Shown one piece after another: positions 14,968-26,953 of a DNA stretch of 64,000 nucleotides; position 1 is the stretch's first letter; each line of letters opens with the position of its first letter. Both the position numbers and the translations under genes were made by a program. The DNA lies in assembly GCA_937873155.1 (NCBI GenBank), contig CALMVZ010000039.1:1-64000 (forward strand), in the 5' to 3' direction. Source of the stretch: an uncultured Bacteroidota bacterium (GTDB taxonomy: Bacteria; Bacteroidota; Bacteroidia; B-17B0; Aurantibacillaceae). The notes under the pieces are model-generated. The model saw only the letters and a list, made by a program, of their open reading frames with translations, was not told where the DNA came from and ran no database searches.

Positions 14968-14991
14968 TCCTTTCATAAGAAAAGCACGTTA

Positions 14992-15020
14992 TGCTGCCCG
15001 CCATAGGCGAATGCAGCATC
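14992..15020. repeat. Imperfect palindrome after the thiolase gene
   Basis: The arms ATGCTGC and GCAGCAT enclose CGCC/GGCG. It may be a small palindromic element distinct from the pair at 3.0-3.2 kb. Only one copy was seen here. Confidence 0.4.
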
Positions 15021-15022
15021 TC

Positions 15023-15058
15023 AAAAAAGCCCCCAACAATTCTGTTGGGGGCTTTTTT
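15023..15058 (+). terminator. Terminator of the thiolase gene
   Basis: A 16-bp stem, AAAAAAGCCCCCAACA with TGTTGGGGGCTTTTTT, around a 4-base loop. It is symmetric, so it can work in both directions. It lies inside an upstream extension of the next reading frame, which argues for that gene starting at 15075. Confidence 0.9.
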
Positions 15059-15074
15059 GTTGTATCTTAGTAGT

Positions 15075-16808
15075 ATGTGGAGATGTAGTTTCCTTTTATT
15101 ATTTTCATTAGTACTTAATGCTCAACCGTACGGACAATTCAAATATTCGCATGCAGGGGTATTTATGACCAATGCATTTGTAACCGCATTAAACTCGAAA
15201 GGTCATTTATTAGTAGGTCATAAACCAAATAGCTTAAGCGGAACCTATAATTTTTGCATTGACAAAACAAACACATCAGGCGGTTTTACTTCAGCTGCAT
15301 TTTCATTTAAAAAAGAATATCAGTTACTGATCACACCTTCATGTACAAGTGTTAATCCTAATCAGATCTTAAATTGCGCAGGCGTTTCAGCAATAGAAAC
15401 CAGCGCTCCGGGAAATCCAAAAGCATGGTATGCATTAACCGGGGCGTATGATGAAGGATGTTTTTTTGCAACCTTAGATAGTTTAGGTTCACCTATAAAT
15501 TATAAAGCGTATACATTTCCTTATATAAATCCATTCTCAAACGTCAAAACTTATATTACTGAATCGGTTTCTTCTCCCGGGGAATATTATATAACAGGCA
15601 CTCATGATTCAACTGTATTTGTTTTAAATGTCAACGCTTCAGGAAATGTTCTGTGGTCAAACTATTATCATAGTGGTACAGCTTTCTTCAATGCTTCCGG
15701 GATCATGGATTGTCCGTTCACCGGCGATATTCTTGTAATAGGTTCTGTAAATCCTCCCGCTCCCTGGAGTACAGGAACGGATGGTTTTATTTTACGTCTC
15801 GATAGAAATAACGGCAACGTGAATTTTTACAAAACTTATACCATGAAGTCCGGGGCATGTCAATTGTTTACTTCTATAAAACCTTCTTATTCTAATACGG
15901 GAGGTCAGGGATATATTATCGGTGGATCAACCGATATTTACCCCGCATTACCATGGATGTTAAAAGTAGGTGTAGGAGGAAATATTATTTGGACAACGGT
16001 GATAATGCCATCAAGCGATCCGGGAGCTTCGACAGTTACTGATGTCATTGAAAGATCTATCGGTTCAACGTATGAATATTACGGATCAATAAGATCAAAT
16101 GTAGCGGGAATGATAGTTGTTAAACTGAATGACAACGGATCTCCAATGGCTACTGTAAATAACGAGTTTGTATTTAATACTACTGCAAGCGTTGTGGCAT
16201 CTTCGTGTAACCTGGATTTTGAAAACCCGGGACCGAACATCGCATTGACTTCTTACGGAACAGTTGACCAGGTAAATGGCGGAGAAATGTATATGGTTCG
16301 CTCTTATTTCAATGGTAAATCAGGTTGCAATGAAACAGGTACTGTTGTGAGTAATTATTATGCCGGTCCTGATACTGTTATTACTCCGTGGATCATGAAA
16401 TACGGCTCCTTAACTGCCTGCAATATGTTCTCGATCGCCGAAACAACTGTAACAAATCTAGCGGTAGTTCTTTGCAGCAGCACAGTTATTGCCGGAGGAA
16501 GTAATTCGGGAGTCGCAACGGCAATAAAAGAGTTGTATGAAGACGATAACGGAGTAAAAGTAGTTCCGAATCCAACAGATGGTATCGCAGGTTTAAATTT
16601 CGAACTCAGGGCAAAGGCAAAAGTTGAAATCAGTATCCTGAATAGTTTAGGACAGAATTTAAAAATTGTTTTAGATTCTGAATTAGAAAACGGGAAATAC
16701 AAAGCTGTAATTGATCTCGATGAACTTAAGATCCCGAATGGCATGTATTTTATCAGGTTCAATACGGAAGGTGAAAGCAGGTCTTACAAGGTTATTTACA
16801 CTAAGTGA
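15075..16808 (+). CDS. Secreted T9SS cargo protein, beta-rich
   Basis: About 577 residues. The start is ATG 15075, giving the signal peptide MWRCSFLLLFSLVLNAQ; the longer frame from 14991 would run through a terminator. The body (about 20-480) is a beta-rich region with repeated FITGTHDST/ILVIGS/YIIGGSTD-like strands, probably a propeller-type fold as in Kelch- or SBBP-like proteins. The last ~80 residues are a T9SS tail (KVVPNPTDGIAGLNFEL, SILNSLGQN, NGMYFIRF). No catalytic motif is visible. It is likely a surface or released protein of unknown function. Confidence 0.8.
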   Translation: MWRCSFLLLFSLVLNAQPYGQFKYSHAGVFMTNAFVTALNSKGHLLVGHKPNSLSGTYNFCIDKTNTSGGFTSAAFSFKKEYQLLITPSCTSVNPNQILNCAGVSAIETSAPGNPKAWYALTGAYDEGCFFATLDSLGSPINYKAYTFPYINPFSNVKTYITESVSSPGEYYITGTHDSTVFVLNVNASGNVLWSNYYHSGTAFFNASGIMDCPFTGDILVIGSVNPPAPWSTGTDGFILRLDRNNGNVNFYKTYTMKSGACQLFTSIKPSYSNTGGQGYIIGGSTDIYPALPWMLKVGVGGNIIWTTVIMPSSDPGASTVTDVIERSIGSTYEYYGSIRSNVAGMIVVKLNDNGSPMATVNNEFVFNTTASVVASSCNLDFENPGPNIALTSYGTVDQVNGGEMYMVRSYFNGKSGCNETGTVVSNYYAGPDTVITPWIMKYGSLTACNMFSIAETTVTNLAVVLCSSTVIAGGSNSGVATAIKELYEDDNGVKVVPNPTDGIAGLNFELRAKAKVEISILNSLGQNLKIVLDSELENGKYKAVIDLDELKIPNGMYFIRFNTEGESRSYKVIYTK

Positions 16809-18824: not shown

Positions 18825-20525
18825 TTACTCTTTAACTATTTTAGTAATATATTGTTTTCCTTCCTGGATTATTTTTACGAAGTAAATTCCGTTAGATTGA
18901 TCTTGCAGATCTATTGTTTGTTTGCCTGAATTTCTTTTTTCATTTAATATTTCCTGGCCTAAAACATTAGTGATTACAATTCCAGAATATAAATCTAATT
19001 CAAAATAAAATGTCCCGTTAGCCGGATTGGGATAGATATTTAAAAAAGAAGAACTAAAATCTTTATTAATACCTGTTGAACCCTGATTCATTTTATGAAT
19101 AAAAATATCTTCGTTGCCATTTGACATGACAGTGAAGGTAGAGGCTGTAGGGTCAAAATCACATGTTCCTATAAACCGGCCGGTGGTGTATACCCTTCCT
19201 GCCGCATCAACCGCTATTCCTTTTGCTTCATCGGTAAGTCCGCCACCCATTCTTGCAGCCCAAATATAATTACCTGAAGCATCTAATTTGCTTACAAAAA
19301 TATCCGGTGTTCCGCCTTGAGCTGTGAAGTTTGCAACTGCAGGTCCAGGATCGAAATCACCTGGCATACTTTGAAAATAACCTGTAGTGTAACAATTACC
19401 GGCTACATCAAGCGTAATTGCATTACCGCGGTCGAACGCCAATCCGCCAAGTTGTTTCGCCCAAACAAAATTTCCTGAGGCATCAAGTTTGCTTATGAAG
19501 ATATCTTCACTGCCAAAAACGCCCATTGTGAACGTAGAAACCCCGGGATCAAAATCAGCATTGGTTTGAAAATATCCTGTTGTATAGACATCTCCTGAAC
19601 CATCAACTGTAATGCCACTTCCTTGATCATCAAGTGTGCCGCCAATACTTTTGGCCCATGAAAAATTCCCTGATACATCCAGTTTACTTATAAAAACATC
19701 AAATTGACCAATAGGGCTTAAAGTAAAAGTTCCTGTACCGGGATCAAAGTCGGCAGCTGTGCTTTGATAATAACCGGTAGTGTAAACATTTCCCGGATTA
19801 TCTACAGCAATTCCGTAACAATAATCCTGAGTTGCACCTCCAAATGATCTGGCCCAAACGAAATTTCCTGAATTGTCAAGTTTGCTGATATAAACATCAT
19901 TACCTCCCGCGGTGGATAAAGTATAAGTTCCCGGTCCCGGATCAAAATCAGCGTTAAAACTTGTGAAATAGCCTGCGGTATAAACATTATTACTGCCATC
20001 AAGGGCAACAGCGTATGCATAATCAATTGCAAAACCGCCTAGTTTTTTCGCCCAAATAAAATTTCCATTAGCATCAAGTTTGCACACAAAGCCATCACTT
20101 GAGGCGTAAGGGCTCATAGTAAAGGTAGTGGCATTCGGATCAAAATCCGTGTTTAAACTATTGAAATAACCGGCAATATAAATATTAGCTGAAGGATCTA
20201 ACGCAATTGAAAAGCCTACGTCATTTTGTCCCCCTCCGATCTGTTTTGCCCAAATGAAATTACCGGATGGATCAAACTTGCTTATAAAAAGATCAATAAA
20301 TCCATTGCTGGTAAGTGAAAATGTGCCAGGGCCGGGATCGAAATCGGCAGCTCCGCTGAAACTTCCGGTAACGTAAACATTTCCCGCCGCATCTACTGCA
20401 ACATCATTCGCCTGTTCATTGCTAGTGGATCCAATATTTTTTACCCACTGAAGACTTGGCGCCTGAGAACTGGAAGTAAAAGCAATAAAAAAAAGTAAAG
20501 CTGAAAAGATTGCTGTTTTTTTCAT
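18825..20525 (-). CDS. SBBP-repeat beta-propeller protein with T9SS tail
   Basis: 566 residues with a signal peptide (KTAIFSALLFFIAFTSSSQ). Seven SBBP-type repeats follow, each about 62 residues with AVDxxGNVYxTGYF, a DFDPGxxTFTL acidic loop and ISKLDxSGNFxWAK. Seven units suit a closed propeller. The final ~75 residues are a T9SS tail (LNIYPNPANGTFYFEL, NGIYFVKI). The DxDxG-like loops may bind calcium. The role is probably as a surface protein; no enzyme motif is seen. Confidence 0.88.
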   Translation of the reverse strand: MKKTAIFSALLFFIAFTSSSQAPSLQWVKNIGSTSNEQANDVAVDAAGNVYVTGSFSGAADFDPGPGTFSLTSNGFIDLFISKFDPSGNFIWAKQIGGGQNDVGFSIALDPSANIYIAGYFNSLNTDFDPNATTFTMSPYASSDGFVCKLDANGNFIWAKKLGGFAIDYAYAVALDGSNNVYTAGYFTSFNADFDPGPGTYTLSTAGGNDVYISKLDNSGNFVWARSFGGATQDYCYGIAVDNPGNVYTTGYYQSTAADFDPGTGTFTLSPIGQFDVFISKLDVSGNFSWAKSIGGTLDDQGSGITVDGSGDVYTTGYFQTNADFDPGVSTFTMGVFGSEDIFISKLDASGNFVWAKQLGGLAFDRGNAITLDVAGNCYTTGYFQSMPGDFDPGPAVANFTAQGGTPDIFVSKLDASGNYIWAARMGGGLTDEAKGIAVDAAGRVYTTGRFIGTCDFDPTASTFTVMSNGNEDIFIHKMNQGSTGINKDFSSSFLNIYPNPANGTFYFELDLYSGIVITNVLGQEILNEKRNSGKQTIDLQDQSNGIYFVKIIQEGKQYITKIVKE

Positions 20526-20585: not shown

Positions 20586-23500
20586 CTACCGGTTCAAATA
20601 CTGTTGTGATTCAGCGTAAGAAAGCTTCTTTCCATTCTGGTAAACACTCACAAAAGCATCACCGATTCCTAAACCGATCATCTGATCTTTTAATTGTTTA
20701 GCGAATTTCACATCCGTGAAATTACCTACTGTATAAATGTAAAGCGCGTTGATAAGTTTATTATCCACGGGCCATTCTTTGATCTTTTGGAAGTTAGCAG
20801 CGATCTCAGCAGGGACCTGGTTCTTGTAAGCACCAATTTGTACCCTGAACGAAAGGCCTTCCTCACCAACTTTAACACCATTCTCAGCAGTAGGAGCAGG
20901 GCCCGTAGTAACTCCATTACTAAAAGGTGTAACCGCCGGAGTAACGGCTCCTGTTGTATTGTTTGCAGGAAGAGTTTCAGCAGCGGCAGGGAATACGATC
21001 GGATTCTCAGTTTCCATTTTCAGGTTCACACTGTCGTTCTTGATCTGCTCGGCCTGGGTGAAGGTAATTCTTTTACCATTATAATAAGCAGAAGAAAATG
21101 CATCTTTAATTCCAATTCCATTTACTTTCGCTCTGTCAGTACTTAAATGATCTTTTACATTGTAAATACCCGCTGTATAACGGTAAAGACCGCTAGGCAA
21201 TTTTTCTGTAAAGATCGGGCTCAGATTATACAATTGTCCGCGTGTAACTTGTCTTGAATACACACCGATCTGCACCGTAAATAACAAACCGTTTATTTGT
21301 TCTAATTCTTTGGTTACAACTGCAGGTTCGGTATTTGTAGTTAATGGATTCGTATTTACAGGGGCTACGACAGTGTTCTTTGGGATATTATTGTTTGCGC
21401 TGATACCGGCAGATTTGTTTGGGGTAAGGTCAACTTCTTTTCCTTCGTTCTTCAAAATAGTAAGCGCTTCATTCATTGAGATCCTTCTTCCTTCATAGAA
21501 CCCTACTACGAATGCATCCTGGTAACCTAAATTGCGCAGGTCGTTTTTAACGGCATTCGCATCTTCGAATTTATCAAAGTTACCTGCTGTGTAGCGGATG
21601 TAGCCGTTAGGCGTTGTTTCTCCGTTCACAGGTGTTAAACCACCGAAAGCATTATTGGGAACAGGCGCCTTAAATGCCCCGATCTGTACACGGAAAACCA
21701 AACCTGCAGGAACTTTTGCGTCGACAGGAATAGGGTTGTTGCCGGAGTAAGCATTGTTTGTTTTTACTTCAACACCTGCAGCTTTAAATGGAACAGCATT
21801 CACATTTGGTATATTGTTATTTGCCGCTACATTATTGTTCGCGTTATTTCTTGGATTAGTATTATTTCCTCCGGTAGTATTATTCGTATTATTGCGTGGA
21901 TTAGTATTGTTTCCTCCGGTGTTGTTGTTCGCGTTGTTACGCGGATTATTATTAGTGTTTGCCGCTACATTATTGTTACCGCCTGTATTGTTATTCGCGT
22001 TATTGCGCGGATTTGTATTGTTTCCTGCTGTATTATTATTAGCAGCTGTATTGTTATTTCCACCCGTATTATTATTAGCAGCAACAGTTGGAGTAACAGC
22101 AGTTTTAGCTTCTGTAACCGGGTTGACTGTTACGACAGGGGTTTTAACAGCGTATTCTGTGTCGTACTGTTTCAGCATGTTGATCACATCGTACTGGCGT
22201 AGCTGTATCTCCGCTTCTTTTTCTTCTGCATTACTTAACCCGCCTAATTTAGCAGAGTTATTTGTTGATGCATTTGCTTCACTACGGATATCATTAGCTT
22301 GTTTCTTATTAGTGGTGATCATATTGATCAGTTCTTCAGCGTTGGCAACATCCACGCCTTTTGCTTTTGCTTTCTCCACGTAATTCGCAATTGCTTCATT
22401 CAGATTATTGTACTGAGCTTCGTTCAGGTCTTTTTGAATGGATGAAGCCTGTAATTTAGTGTTTATAGATTTAGTCTCTAATGCTTTTGCTTTATTGATA
22501 AGATCTGTTTTTTCAGGACCAGTCTTTGTAGCGGCATCTTTACGGAGAGCAGAAGCTTCACTCGCATAACTGTCAGCTTCAGTAGTTAAGTTGTCAATTT
22601 TTGTTTTCGCTTCATCAGGCGTGGTTTGATAAGTAGTCGTAGTAACGGCATCAACAGTATTAGTTGTTGCGGCGTTATTATTTGTGTTATCTGTTGTATT
22701 GTTTCCTGTAGTGTTATTATTAGAGGCATTAGTTGTCTCAGGGGTGTTTGTAGCAACAGCAGTAGTATTTGAGTTAACCGAGTTATTATTAAGTGTATTA
22801 TTTGTTTCAGGCGTATTAGTCGCAACTGCGGTGGTATTTGTATTAGCGGTATTGTTCTTATTTCCGCTTGTGTTATTATCATTACCCGAAGTATTGGTAT
22901 TCCCGGTGTTATTATTTATATCCGTTGAATTATTGTTATTGCCGGTATTGTTATTGTCAATTGCAGTTGAATTATTATTTCCTGTATTGTTGTTAGTGGC
23001 GATCGCATTACTTTTAGAAGCTTCATCAGCCTGGTTTAAAGTACTAAGTGCTTCTACTTCTTTTTTATTCGCCTCTAATAATAAATTCTGTTTAGCGCCC
23101 GCATCAGTAACAGTCAAAGCCTGGCTGATCAAAGCAAGCGCTTCTTTATTTAAAGCCTCTGCTTGTTTTTTCAGATTAGCTGATTCTGAATTAGTGGTTT
23201 TTATTTTTGCACTTTGTGATTTGTATTCGTTCTGGTTCGCTTTGCTTAAGGCCATGTAAGCGTCCAGTTTATCTTTATTAAGTTTATCGTTCTGTTGCTT
23301 AACGTTATTTAAAACAAGGCTATTATCAGGCGCTGCGCCATCTGCTTTTTTCAGATCAAATCCGGCATTAGCTTTCATTAATAATTCTATTGCTTTATTT
23401 TGTTTTGCTAAAGCTTCAGCTTCTTTTTCTTCCGCATTACTGATGGTTCCTAATTTGGCAGCATCGCTTCCTAAAGTATTTGCTTCTGCGCGAATAGCAG

Positions 23501-26500
23501 TTGCCTGTTTAAAGGCTGTTGCTGCTTCATTGTTCAGTTTTTTTGCTTCGCTAAGGTCATCGCCGCCTGATTTACCGGTTTTGATAAGATTATCAATATT
23601 CTCTTTGTTAACAGTAAACTCACTATTGTTTTGATTTTTTGTTACTTCTGTTGCTTCTAAATATTTTTTATTGGCTTGCGCGTCAAGATCCCTTGCCTCA
23701 TCCAGTAATCTCTGTTTTTCCTCACCCTCTTTATTCGCTGCCTGGTTACGTTTATCTTTTGCTTTGCCACTCAGGTCATCACCTTCTTCATTTAATTTAT
23801 CTTTTGATGGACCCGCGGTTGTTGGCGCGCCGTTATTATTCTTAATACTTTCTTCGGCTTTTGCAATGCTGGTCAACAGATCGCTTTTAGTTGTATTCGC
23901 GATTGCTAATTTATCTTCGGCAGTTTTTTTAAGATTAACAGAATTCGGGTTTTTATAATCATTATAAGCGAAGGCAGGATTGTTGGTATTATCAACCTGG
24001 TTCTTTAAAGCAATTAATTTATTGTTATCGTCTGCGTTATTGGTTGGAGTAAGGTCAATTGGAGTGTACGGTGTTGAAGTGTTATTCGTGTTCGTATTGA
24101 TATTGTTGCCGCTTGTGTTAGCTGTTGTATTTGTATTAGCCGCAATATTACTTCCGCCGTCAAGTTCCCGGATCTTAGAATTGTTTGCAGCGATCTTCTC
24201 TTCATTTATCCCTTTTTGTTTCTCAAGCTTGCTGATCTCGTTAATGTATTTTTGTTTGTCATTGTTGTTAGTTGCAGCTTTAATGTCAACCCGGTTCAGA
24301 GCGATCAGGTCATCTAATTCTTTATTGTACTCGTTTAAAATAGTATTCTGTTTGGTATACTCATTTTTATCGTTGGTGTTCTGTATCGGCTGAATTTTGT
24401 CGTTATATTTTGAAGCAATGCTTTCAGGTGTTAAATTATTAGTGGGAGTAGAGTTATTCGTTGTTGAATTGTTGGTTATCGTTGTATTAGTTGTTGTAGG
24501 ATTAGAAGCCGTGTTAGTATTATTGATCGCAACAGCAGTTTTAGAATCTGTTGTTTTGATAGTATTCACAATGTCGTTAATGGAATTGCTTTGATCTTTC
24601 AATCTTGCAATGTTCTTTTCGTTTGCTGCTAATTCGGTATTCTTCTTATCCAGATCTGTTTTTAATTCGGTGTTCTGGGCTGTTAAATTCTTTTTAATGG
24701 ATTTATCTTTGGTGTTATTGATCTCGGTTTCATTGATACTGATCTCTTTATTGATCTCACTGATCTCATTCTTCAAAGCAGATGACTTCTCTTCAGCTTT
24801 TGCGATCTCCGTTTGTTTCTGATCTGAATCCGTTTTTATAGCAGCATAAACATCATCCGATGCTTTTTTCTGTTTTGTAATGATCTCTAATTCTTTTTGT
24901 ATTTCATCCAACTTAGCTGCGGCTATTTTATCTTTCTTATTCTTCGCGACTTTCTCTAACTGGTCCGCATATTGTTGATTCAGGTCTGCTTCTTTTTGTT
25001 TGTTATTTGCATCATCCTGCATTTTTTTGCCCAGATCAATAATCGTACTCGCCACTTTCGCTGCATCATCGGCCTGGTTCTTTATTTCAGTTGCTTTTTC
25101 CAGTGCGTCTTTCTTTTTCGTTTCATCCGTTATAGCATTTGCTGCTGTGAATGCATCATCGGCTTCTTTTTGCAATTTGTCCGCTTCAATTTTTTTAGCC
25201 TCACCAATTTCGTTGGCATCCCATGCGTCTTGTTTTATTTTCTGAGCTTCAACATTTGCTTCCTTTGCATCTTCTTTTGCAATGTTCAGTAATTGCTCAT
25301 TGGTCAGGTTCGCTTTGTTTGGTGTAACTGAATTCGTGTTTGCCGCGGTTGTATTGTTAGCATTTGCATTTGCATTATTGTTATTACTATCCGAAACAAT
25401 AGTTGGATTATTTGTACTTACGGCATTTGTAGTGTTAGACGTTGCAGCTTCTATAGTCGGATTGTTCTTAACTTCATTCTCATTAACTTCAAGCTTAGCT
25501 TTTTTCTCTATCAGCTCTAAATACTTCAGATAACTCAGATCATCCGGTGGTGTATCAAAGTAATTCAGGATCTTTAACACTTTATTATCGTAAGAAATAG
25601 ATTGTTTGAAAGGAGAAAGTGAAGTTGCAACAGGCAGAACAACTTTATCAGATTGGGTTGGAATGTTCGGTGTTTCAACTGTAAAGATAAATTTCCCGCC
25701 GTTCGGTAACTCCATGTAATAATCACCATTATCTTTCGCGTAATAAGTACCTACGATCTGGCCGTTATCCATATTCTTAACTGTTATTTTAGAATCTAAA
25801 CGTTGCGCTGCATTTTCTTTTACAACAGTTCCTTTCAAAACAGCAATGGCCATCGGCTTACGTTCTGTATTTACTTTTAATACATCAATTTTCCCGGGAG
25901 GACTTTGACGGCCGGTTGAGAAGTAAGCGATCTTTCCTGCTTCATCAGTAACGAATAAATAATCATCATCAGGCGAGTTGATAGGGAATTCCATGTTAAC
26001 CGGTTGCGACCATGTATTTGTTTCCTGATCGTATTCAGATTTAAAAATATCATACCCCCCCATGCTGTTAAAGCCTTTTGAGCTGAAGTAAAGTGTTTTG
26101 CCGTCCGGGTGAAGAAAAGGATAATCTTCATCGTACTCCGTATTCACGCCCGTGATCTTTTGTGGTTTACTGAAATTACCATCCGATAAACGGTTCCTGT
26201 AGTATATATCCCGGCCGTTATCTCCGTTATCCCCATAACTCGAATAATATATCCTGTCTCCAACCTGCGGGAGATACATTACCGATTTGTCTTTCTTACG
26301 TTTGTCGTAACCACTTTTGAATTCTTCCGGCTTCACTAATAGTTTTCCTCCAATGCTGGAAAGGTCATAACTCCTGAAATAATCAGCTTCATTCAATTGT
26401 TTTTTGTTGATCACCACCAATTCCGACATGGTAGCTAACAAACGTTTACCGTTCTGACAGGCTTTGATCTCTTTATCTACCTGCAGTCGTTTTTGCTGTG

Positions 26501-26900
26501 AAGAAGAACCGATCTTTTTATAATCTTCGTAATACTTCAGGGCCTCATCGAACTGGTAATTGATGTGATAAGCTTTTCCGAGATAGAAGGTCGCGTCCTT
26601 TGGAGCATCTTTTGGATGGTTAGCGGCTATCTTCAGGTAAGAAAAACATTTCTTTTTGTTGGGTTCAGAGTATAACATACAAACCCCCAGATGGTAATTG
26701 AGATCGGGATCAGTTCCGTGATTAGATACTAATTGGGCATATAAGGGATAAGCTTTTGTGAACTCATCCTCTTCAAACAAGCGTTCAGCTTCTTTTCTCA
26801 GTTCCTCTTCGTTCTTGAATTGCTGAGCATTTAAATTATTGAAAAACAATAAGTTAAATATAAATAAGAGCACGGTAAATTTAACGGGCCAAACGCGCAT
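20586..26900 (-). CDS. Giant envelope protein: TPR, PD40 propeller, Asn/Thr-rich coil body, three SPOR-like repeats
   Basis: About 2104 residues from ATG 26900. The frame runs 16 codons further to a TTG, but that TTG lies inside a -7 box. The signal peptide ends at NNLNAQ. In order there are TPR helices (about 25-185), PD40/WD40-like blades (about 205-345, with YPFLHPDGKTLYFSSKGF and DIYYRNR), a carboxypeptidase-regulatory-like beta domain (about 350-435), a long Lys/Glu/Ala coiled-coil body broken by Asn/Thr-rich linkers (about 500-1720), and three SPOR-like repeats starting near 1732, 1870 and 2010 (each FRVQIGAYK-like, ending DAFVxxYxNGKxxS). The TPR-PD40-CRD order is that of the T9SS protein PorE, but SPOR repeats, which bind denuded peptidoglycan, replace the OmpA-like end. 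It is probably periplasmic or outer-membrane linked. Confidence 0.82.
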   Translation of the reverse strand: MRVWPVKFTVLLFIFNLLFFNNLNAQQFKNEEELRKEAERLFEEDEFTKAYPLYAQLVSNHGTDPDLNYHLGVCMLYSEPNKKKCFSYLKIAANHPKDAPKDATFYLGKAYHINYQFDEALKYYEDYKKIGSSSQQKRLQVDKEIKACQNGKRLLATMSELVVINKKQLNEADYFRSYDLSSIGGKLLVKPEEFKSGYDKRKKDKSVMYLPQVGDRIYYSSYGDNGDNGRDIYYRNRLSDGNFSKPQKITGVNTEYDEDYPFLHPDGKTLYFSSKGFNSMGGYDIFKSEYDQETNTWSQPVNMEFPINSPDDDYLFVTDEAGKIAYFSTGRQSPPGKIDVLKVNTERKPMAIAVLKGTVVKENAAQRLDSKITVKNMDNGQIVGTYYAKDNGDYYMELPNGGKFIFTVETPNIPTQSDKVVLPVATSLSPFKQSISYDNKVLKILNYFDTPPDDLSYLKYLELIEKKAKLEVNENEVKNNPTIEAATSNTTNAVSTNNPTIVSDSNNNNANANANNTTAANTNSVTPNKANLTNEQLLNIAKEDAKEANVEAQKIKQDAWDANEIGEAKKIEADKLQKEADDAFTAANAITDETKKKDALEKATEIKNQADDAAKVASTIIDLGKKMQDDANNKQKEADLNQQYADQLEKVAKNKKDKIAAAKLDEIQKELEIITKQKKASDDVYAAIKTDSDQKQTEIAKAEEKSSALKNEISEINKEISINETEINNTKDKSIKKNLTAQNTELKTDLDKKNTELAANEKNIARLKDQSNSINDIVNTIKTTDSKTAVAINNTNTASNPTTTNTTITNNSTTNNSTPTNNLTPESIASKYNDKIQPIQNTNDKNEYTKQNTILNEYNKELDDLIALNRVDIKAATNNNDKQKYINEISKLEKQKGINEEKIAANNSKIRELDGGSNIAANTNTTANTSGNNINTNTNNTSTPYTPIDLTPTNNADDNNKLIALKNQVDNTNNPAFAYNDYKNPNSVNLKKTAEDKLAIANTTKSDLLTSIAKAEESIKNNNGAPTTAGPSKDKLNEEGDDLSGKAKDKRNQAANKEGEEKQRLLDEARDLDAQANKKYLEATEVTKNQNNSEFTVNKENIDNLIKTGKSGGDDLSEAKKLNNEAATAFKQATAIRAEANTLGSDAAKLGTISNAEEKEAEALAKQNKAIELLMKANAGFDLKKADGAAPDNSLVLNNVKQQNDKLNKDKLDAYMALSKANQNEYKSQSAKIKTTNSESANLKKQAEALNKEALALISQALTVTDAGAKQNLLLEANKKEVEALSTLNQADEASKSNAIATNNNTGNNNSTAIDNNNTGNNNNSTDINNNTGNTNTSGNDNNTSGNKNNTANTNTTAVATNTPETNNTLNNNSVNSNTTAVATNTPETTNASNNNTTGNNTTDNTNNNAATTNTVDAVTTTTYQTTPDEAKTKIDNLTTEADSYASEASALRKDAATKTGPEKTDLINKAKALETKSINTKLQASSIQKDLNEAQYNNLNEAIANYVEKAKAKGVDVANAEELINMITTNKKQANDIRSEANASTNNSAKLGGLSNAEEKEAEIQLRQYDVINMLKQYDTEYAVKTPVVTVNPVTEAKTAVTPTVAANNNTGGNNNTAANNNTAGNNTNPRNNANNNTGGNNNVAANTNNNPRNNANNNTGGNNTNPRNNTNNTTGGNNTNPRNNANNNVAANNNIPNVNAVPFKAAGVEVKTNNAYSGNNPIPVDAKVPAGLVFRVQIGAFKAPVPNNAFGGLTPVNGETTPNGYIRYTAGNFDKFEDANAVKNDLRNLGYQDAFVVGFYEGRRISMNEALTILKNEGKEVDLTPNKSAGISANNNIPKNTVVAPVNTNPLTTNTEPAVVTKELEQINGLLFTVQIGVYSRQVTRGQLYNLSPIFTEKLPSGLYRYTAGIYNVKDHLSTDRAKVNGIGIKDAFSSAYYNGKRITFTQAEQIKNDSVNLKMETENPIVFPAAAETLPANNTTGAVTPAVTPFSNGVTTGPAPTAENGVKVGEEGLSFRVQIGAYKNQVPAEIAANFQKIKEWPVDNKLINALYIYTVGNFTDVKFAKQLKDQMIGLGIGDAFVSVYQNGKKLSYAESQQYLNR
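21795..22085. repeat. Coding minisatellite, Asn/Pro/Arg/Gly linker
   Basis: It encodes tandem units of the type NNTNPRNNxNNxTGG, 15 residues (45 bases), in the linker before the first SPOR repeat. Units differ at third positions (NPRNN encoded in several ways), so the array is old enough to have drifted or is kept by selection on the protein. Confidence 0.75.
22660..22995. repeat. Second Asn/Thr/Gly-rich low-complexity coding region
   Basis: Irregular repeats of NNNTGNNNST and NTTAVATNTPE-like units in the same giant gene. The reverse strand reads as Leu/Val-rich open frames, which are artefacts. Confidence 0.65.
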
Positions 26901-26945
26901 ACCGCTTATACGGAAGGATAATAGAATATGATACAAAAATTTAAA

Positions 26946-26953
26946 CAAATTTA
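26946..26953 (-). promoter_or_regulatory. -7 box (TAAATTTG) of the giant SPOR gene
   Basis: A minus-strand TAnnTTTG 45 bases before ATG 26900. It overlaps the TTG that would otherwise be the first start codon, so that TTG is unlikely to be used. Confidence 0.5.

Follow-up and report, generated by a model that had tools for sequence, protein, structure and literature searches.

The DNA analysed in this study, hereafter the window, comprises 64,000 nucleotides (positions 1-64,000 of contig CALMVZ010000039.1, assembly GCA_937873155.1) of an uncultured Bacteroidota bacterium of the Aurantibacillaceae. A single open frame on its reverse strand (20586..26948) encodes a giant protein of 2120 residues when read from a TTG, or of 2104 residues when read from the ATG at 26900; the ATG was judged the likelier start and is also the coordinate used in an earlier note on this DNA, the claims of which are followed up here. 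The protein begins with a stretch resembling a signal peptide, continues with a head made up of a TPR domain, a short propeller of the TolB/PD40 type and a CRD-like beta domain, and ends, after a long linker, in three SPOR domains. Head, long linker and tail were all present in 36 of the 36 giants compared, that is, the window protein and 35 orthologues picked by their tails, 29 and 30 of which form the rows of the tail (A1) and head (A2) alignments, respectively. For the wider alignments, 47 of 80 loci were taken, which resulted in 43 rows for the tail (A3) and 46 rows for the head (A4), with the window counted in each.

Domains of the giant protein

The C-terminal repeats, designated SPOR domain 1 (21438..21707), domain 2 (21030..21296) and domain 3 (20592..20864, all on the reverse strand), were 34-36% identical in pairwise comparisons, with E-values of 1e-13 to 1e-16. 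The Pfam SPOR family (PF05036) matched only repeat 1 of the window giant (E 1.1e-4, 22.9 bits, cut-off 21), and this match spanned the latter half of the profile alone; two orthologues scored 35.8 and 47.5 bits. As a point against the SPOR call, a whole-genome scan for the SPOR family (E 0.01) listed four other places, the giant gene not being among them. Our own SPOR profile, built from the repeats of 43 relatives with the window included, finds the three repeats of the window by construction, and it also matched paralogues left out of its building. The AlphaFold2 model of the tail, based on 43 tails, contained three SPOR-like units with a predicted local distance difference test score (pLDDT) of 85.4 and a predicted template modelling score (pTM) of 0.40; therefore, the domains appear sound and flexibly joined, and their mutual arrangement is not fixed.

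When the tail was compared with solved structures, the best Foldseek match was the SPOR domain of CwlC, with a probability of 1.00 and a template modelling score (TM) of 0.71 by target. Most VIA-align rows landed on repeat 3, which matched the SPOR domains of CwlC (Z 7.5) and of RlpA with bound glycan (Z 6.8), followed by DamX (Z 5.4), DedD (Z 4.6, on repeat 1) and FtsN (Z 3.9). The top row was 6ozd (Z 7.7), a putative exported Burkholderia protein that is not named SPOR, and a photosystem I chain reached Z 5.2. The model and the solved-structure matches, at moderate scores, suggest the SPOR fold for repeats 1 and 3, and the sequence together with a like order of strands and helices in the model suggests it for repeat 2.

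In RlpA, the highly conserved residues Q270 and R309 touch the glycan, and their FtsN counterparts are Q251 and R285 (PMC6895207). Gln occupied the place of RlpA Q270 in 43/43 sequences of A3 in each of the three repeats, and Arg, placed by eye, occupied that of RlpA R309/FtsN R285 in 43/43 sequences in repeats 1 and 2, while Ile, Val or Leu, and no basic residue, stood there in 43/43 sequences in repeat 3. Judged from these residues, repeats 1 and 2 appear competent for glycan binding, and repeat 3 looks altered. The three SPOR-like C-terminal repeats that had been recognised in the earlier note are thus borne out by the Pfam match of repeat 1, the AlphaFold models, the solved-structure matches and the conserved Gln. 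The giant shares its tail fold and the glycan-contact Gln with RlpA, FtsN, DamX, DedD and CwlC. Proteins of this type usually carry a single SPOR domain and lack a TPR-propeller head, whereas the giant has three SPOR domains and such a head.

The head was modelled from an alignment of 46 heads (pLDDT 85.7, pTM 0.78) and was composed of TPR helices, propeller strands and a beta domain. Its TPR domain (26439..26810, reverse strand, as for all features of the protein given below) contains eight helices and matched TPR chains with VIA-align Z of 14-15; the Pfam match was weak and under cut-off. The propeller (25854..26426), about 190 residues in length, was recognised by Pfam PD40 (E 4.2e-5, over cut-off), by the strands of the model and by Foldseek matches to TolB propellers (probability up to 1.00, low TM), and the lowest E-values in that search belonged to unrelated beta-rich proteins, also with low TM. 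While the propeller is of the TolB type, the giant differs from TolB in its low overall TM and in having no TolB N-terminal domain by Pfam. The CRD-like beta domain (25557..25847), the least supported of the three, was assigned from model strands, from the alignment of the giant head with PorE profile positions up to 475, and from a CarboxypepD_reg match at the same place of one orthologue (L066; Pfam E 0.003, under cut-off).

Between head and tail lies the linker (21711..25463), in which, judged from composition, helical segments alternate with Asn/Thr-rich stretches. It is about 1,250 residues long in the window giant and 982-2014 residues across the 36 giants, taken from the limits of BLAST matches, and Asn and Thr together make up at least half of the residues in 24% of the 20-residue windows of the linker of the window giant. 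The earlier note had described it as about 1300 residues of coiled coil and Asn/Thr-rich sequence; the great length and the Asn/Thr stretches were confirmed, but the linker does not consist only of these, as it also contains a conserved module some 137 residues long. The window giant has two copies, copy 1 (23385..23795), which looks helical by composition, and copy 2 (22179..22589), which is 37% identical to copy 1; their pair score was 233, compared with a shuffle maximum of 85. The first search round, built from these two copies alone, detected the module in 18/36 giants, and iteration raised this to 30/36, with one to three copies each, against 0/72 among shuffled sequences. Two pairs of linker segments, h1-h4 and h2-h3, had pair scores only modestly above 200 shuffles; h1 and h3, considered as further module copies, were rejected as no clear repeats of the module. 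Against solved structures, the module had no convincing relative, the best match being a naphthalenediimide-binding protein at E 0.037.

The N-terminus (MRVWPVKF...NLNAQ; 26823..26900) resembles a signal peptide. A hydrophobic N-terminal segment was found in 35/36 giants, the exception (L081) being near the start of its contig, and it is followed by Ala-Gln or Ser-Gln, which we take to be a cleavage site typical of the phylum, in 26/30 rows of A2 by manual count. A lipoprotein anchor was considered and rejected, as no lipobox was found in the sequence of the window giant and a loose pattern matched just 7/36 proteins; in three of these seven (L056, L057 and L076) a Cys lies within the hydrophobic segment, and such an anchor is possible there. 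A hydropathy window detected no transmembrane segment in the protein body in 36/36 giants. The proposed span from the outer membrane was therefore not supported. When the whole giant was searched, nothing under E 0.45 was obtained among solved structures (phmmer), and no NCBIfam model matched, PorE included (E 1), perhaps because of the long linker.

Relation to PorE-like proteins

PorE (PG1058) of Porphyromonas gingivalis comprises TPR, propeller (residues 167-433) and CRD domains followed by an OmpA-like peptidoglycan-binding end, and 424 Bacteroidetes proteins of PG1058-like domain order, some homologues with extensions, have been reported; the main text of that report contains no word beginning with 'spor' (PMC5053529). 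The giant head has the same order of TPR, propeller and CRD, and it is likewise followed by an end of peptidoglycan-binding type. However, in the giant this end is formed by three SPOR domains, which follow a linker of more than 1,000 residues, and no OmpA domain was matched by Pfam or by the searches made here. Two claims of the earlier note, the PorE domain order and the SPOR domains in place of an OmpA end, were therefore upheld, the former by Pfam, models and structure matches that are weakest for the CRD.

The giant head scored 78.5 bits with the PorE model (NF052230) and 89.3 bits with the CHU_0125 model (NF053607), reaching neither the cut-off of 600 nor that of 620. The PorE cut-off is strict, since any protein over it was found in just 14/149 genomes. 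The same genome encodes, apart from the giant, a PorE homologue (L177; G000:C13:205048-206898) that ends in OmpA and scored 486 bits, itself under the cut-off of 600. A tree was built from 44 heads, of which 19 came from the 36 giants, 23 from paralogues in the genome and 2 from PorE reference proteins. The giants formed one clade with support of 100/100, and L177 grouped with two above-cut-off PorE proteins (99/97); no head was matched in the genome frames L082 and L178, and they were not included. The missing lipobox of the window giant is a further difference from PorE, yet the PorE homologues L168 and L177 also show none by eye. The family of CHU_0125 is similar to the giant in its head domains and differs in being OmpA-like by model name and in a model length of 639 positions, which leaves no place for the giant linker. 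These comparisons of sequence indicate that the giant is related to PorE and forms a branch of its own within the PorE superfamily, but is not PorE itself; to call it 'PorE' is contradicted by its own clade, its low score and the separate homologue.

PorE-like heads have undergone a large expansion in this genome, as 23 others were found (L006-L016, L169-L181). In the searches made here, 11 of these had an OmpA end and 3 a SPOR end, and the remaining 9 had neither. The three SPOR-ended paralogues (L009, L015 and L170; 668-718 residues) combine a PorE-like head with one SPOR end by our own profile; of the two scanned with Pfam at E 0.01, L009 and L015, neither had a SPOR call. Like the giant they pair such a head with a SPOR end, but they have no giant linker and a single SPOR domain, and they belong to another tree branch, the fork being weakly supported (82/85). 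The replacement of OmpA by SPOR is thus probably not specific to the giant.

Other candidate SPOR proteins were also observed. A protein of 1043 residues in contig C10 of the same genome (L082:3669-6800) contains PKD domains, narrowly misses the PD40 cut-off and, by our own profile, has three SPOR-like repeats; no SPOR domain was called in it by Pfam at E 0.1, and it is another multi-SPOR candidate. Two adjacent SPOR proteins of 447 and 745 residues lie in C13:82000-92000 (L083), the longer with three SPOR-like stretches by our own profile. A single chain of 904 residues from the same genus (L084:2756-5470) combines PKD domains with an OmpA end and also has a SPOR match that is weak and stays under cut-off.

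Distribution and gene neighbourhood

In the family to which the window belongs, tail matches (E ≤ 1e-28) were found in 47/49 genomes. In a sample of the class Bacteroidia, 62/149 genomes had a tail match at E ≤ 1e-40, 57 of them within frames 1,500 residues or more in length and 5 in shorter ones; this count is by tail alone, and nine genomes with tail E-values between 1e-40 and 1e-20 were scored as lacking the giant. In a phylum sample the giant was found in 2/148 genomes, both among the at least 37 class genomes there. Its share therefore depends on the families drawn, and the phylum sample, with two giants, was set aside as of little use for co-occurrence. SPOR motifs detected by a simple pattern numbered three in 32/36 giants and two in 4/36. 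A scan of named genomes gave at least 522 tail relatives, perhaps including other SPOR proteins, and the titles of the 80 relatives kept named Bacteroidota in 77 cases, 'bacterium' only in 2 and Saccharibacteria in 1 (manual count). A contig labelled Candidatus Saccharibacteria (L133), which we suspect to be a mis-binned Bacteroidota contig, bears an orthologous tail that is 50% identical over query residues 1-379.

The PorE model was matched at E 1e-110 in 58/62 giant-bearing vs. 59/87 other class genomes (Fisher p 1e-4, kinship uncorrected), and the idea that the giant replaces PorE was rejected on this basis. The giant-bearing genomes without such a match were G142 and the less complete G084, G167 and G192.

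The window giant adjoins bamD, an omega-like gene (rpoZ, under cut-off), coaBC and porD (369.5 bits, cut-off 170). This bamD-rpoZ-coaBC-porD order was common to 5/36 loci, the window's included, from two genera of one family; some of the 36 loci are cut at contig ends. Other neighbours were clpS (13 loci), an M48 peptidase (12), a glycerol-3-phosphate acyltransferase (7), a CofH/MqnC-like radical SAM protein (6), floA (5) and an NfeD-like protein (5). The neighbourhood was rejected as a functional clue, as the porD order is confined to one family and the wider neighbours suggest no common pathway. In 5/36 loci (L069:9689-14206 and four similar), the second gene upstream of the giant encodes a protein of about 1,500 residues, and the one scanned had no Pfam match at E 0.001. 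Two proteins with a type A sorting domain of the type IX secretion system (T9SS) are encoded near the giant gene in the window, one at 14991-16808 on the forward strand and one with SBBP-like repeats just downstream of the giant gene (18825-20525, reverse strand).

Proposed role in the cell envelope

With moderate confidence, the giant is proposed to be a periplasmic scaffold, the head of which docks envelope partners while the tail holds them at amidase-trimmed peptidoglycan. The giant would be secreted to the periplasm, where the SPOR triplet would hold it on glycan strands stripped of their peptides by amidases, and a row of three SPOR domains would make this binding strong or extend it to several strands. 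Two Amidase_3 genes over cut-off are present in the genome and could make such denuded strands. Denuded glycan is enriched at the division septum (PMC6895207). The biology of SPOR domains and the conservation of the predicted binding residues make a location of the giant at the septal wall plausible. The TPR-propeller-CRD head would dock envelope partner proteins, and the linker, long and flexible and carrying the modules, would allow the head to extend far from the point at which the protein is anchored.

This proposal starts from features that are directly supported, namely the domain order, the modelled SPOR and TPR folds, the Gln conserved in three repeats and the Arg in two, the conserved plan and the separateness from PorE; the export to the periplasm, the glycan binding, the septal location, the partners and the cellular role of the giant are what we infer from there. 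Several observations weigh against the proposal. Tail Z-scores of 5-8 can reflect a common arrangement by itself, the Foldseek E-value of the CwlC match was just 6e-3, and none was under 0.001. Glycan binding by repeat 3 may be lost, since it is without the Arg. The BLAST head match ends before the CRD in two orthologues (L073 and L075). The linker is far longer than the periplasm needs and varies about twofold in length, and it is therefore no ruler. One genome of the same family (G043), 99% complete, is without a close tail match, so the giant is dispensable to some. Finally, an N-terminus that stays uncleaved in the inner membrane is possible.

A rather unlikely alternative is a role of the giant in outer-membrane integrity like that of CHU_0125 from Cytophaga hutchinsonii, the SPOR domains taking the place of OmpA as the anchor to the wall. 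The head scored slightly more with the CHU_0125 than with the PorE model, and a chu_0125 mutant showed raised sensitivity to harmful compounds and released sixfold more vesicles (PMC5891637); however, the score is far under the CHU_0125 cut-off, and no outer-membrane anchor was found in the window protein.

That the giant is an accessory T9SS part, coupling secretion or gliding to the wall in a PorE-like job, was judged quite improbable. The PorE-type domain order is consistent with it, as are the SprA gene in 61/62 giant-bearing class genomes, the excess of PorE-model matches among them (again with kinship uncorrected) and the adjoining bamD-rpoZ-coaBC-porD genes in five loci. However, SprA was also present in 82/87 giant-free class genomes (Fisher p 0.40), so that 82/143 SprA-bearing class genomes were without a tail match at E 1e-40, and 115/117 SprA-bearing genomes of the phylum sample were without the giant. 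Moreover, the porD order is limited to two genera of one family, clpS, the M48 peptidase, the acyltransferase and floA being neighbours elsewhere, and the genome has its separate PorE homologue. The link to a T9SS-like machine that had been put forward earlier is thus weak, and this evidence does not make the giant a T9SS part.

FtsN-type proteins are bitopic in the inner membrane, and the giant could likewise be anchored, as FtsN, DamX and DedD, by an uncleaved N-terminus while its SPOR tail finds the septum. This was considered very unlikely: the hydrophobic N-terminal segment of 35/36 giants and the SPOR end agree with it, but the presumed cleavage site follows the segment in most rows of A2, and the large head would then sit at the membrane. 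Equally slim is the chance that the giant replaces part of Tol-Pal in a set of Bacteroidia lineages, its TolB-like head engaging the outer membrane or its machines and its triple SPOR tail the septal wall. Division would then draw the outer membrane inward with the cell. No protein of the genome was over the TolB cut-off.

Whether the family had already been described with another role, which the earlier note had named as a refutation, was addressed by an open-access literature search, and no description of a SPOR-ended giant was present among the matches listed; PMC6247017 was discarded as a SPOR paper because the whole word SPOR is absent from it. A conserved giant envelope protein that joins a secretion-type scaffold head to a triple wall-binding-type tail thus appears undescribed in the literature searched. 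The results suggest that, inside one genome, members of the PorE superfamily differ in their wall anchor, with an OmpA end in some, a SPOR end in others and neither in the rest, and therefore domain order alone is unfit for annotating a protein as a T9SS part. If the tail of the giant is septal, the protein would offer a handle on the coupling of the outer envelope to division in these bacteria.

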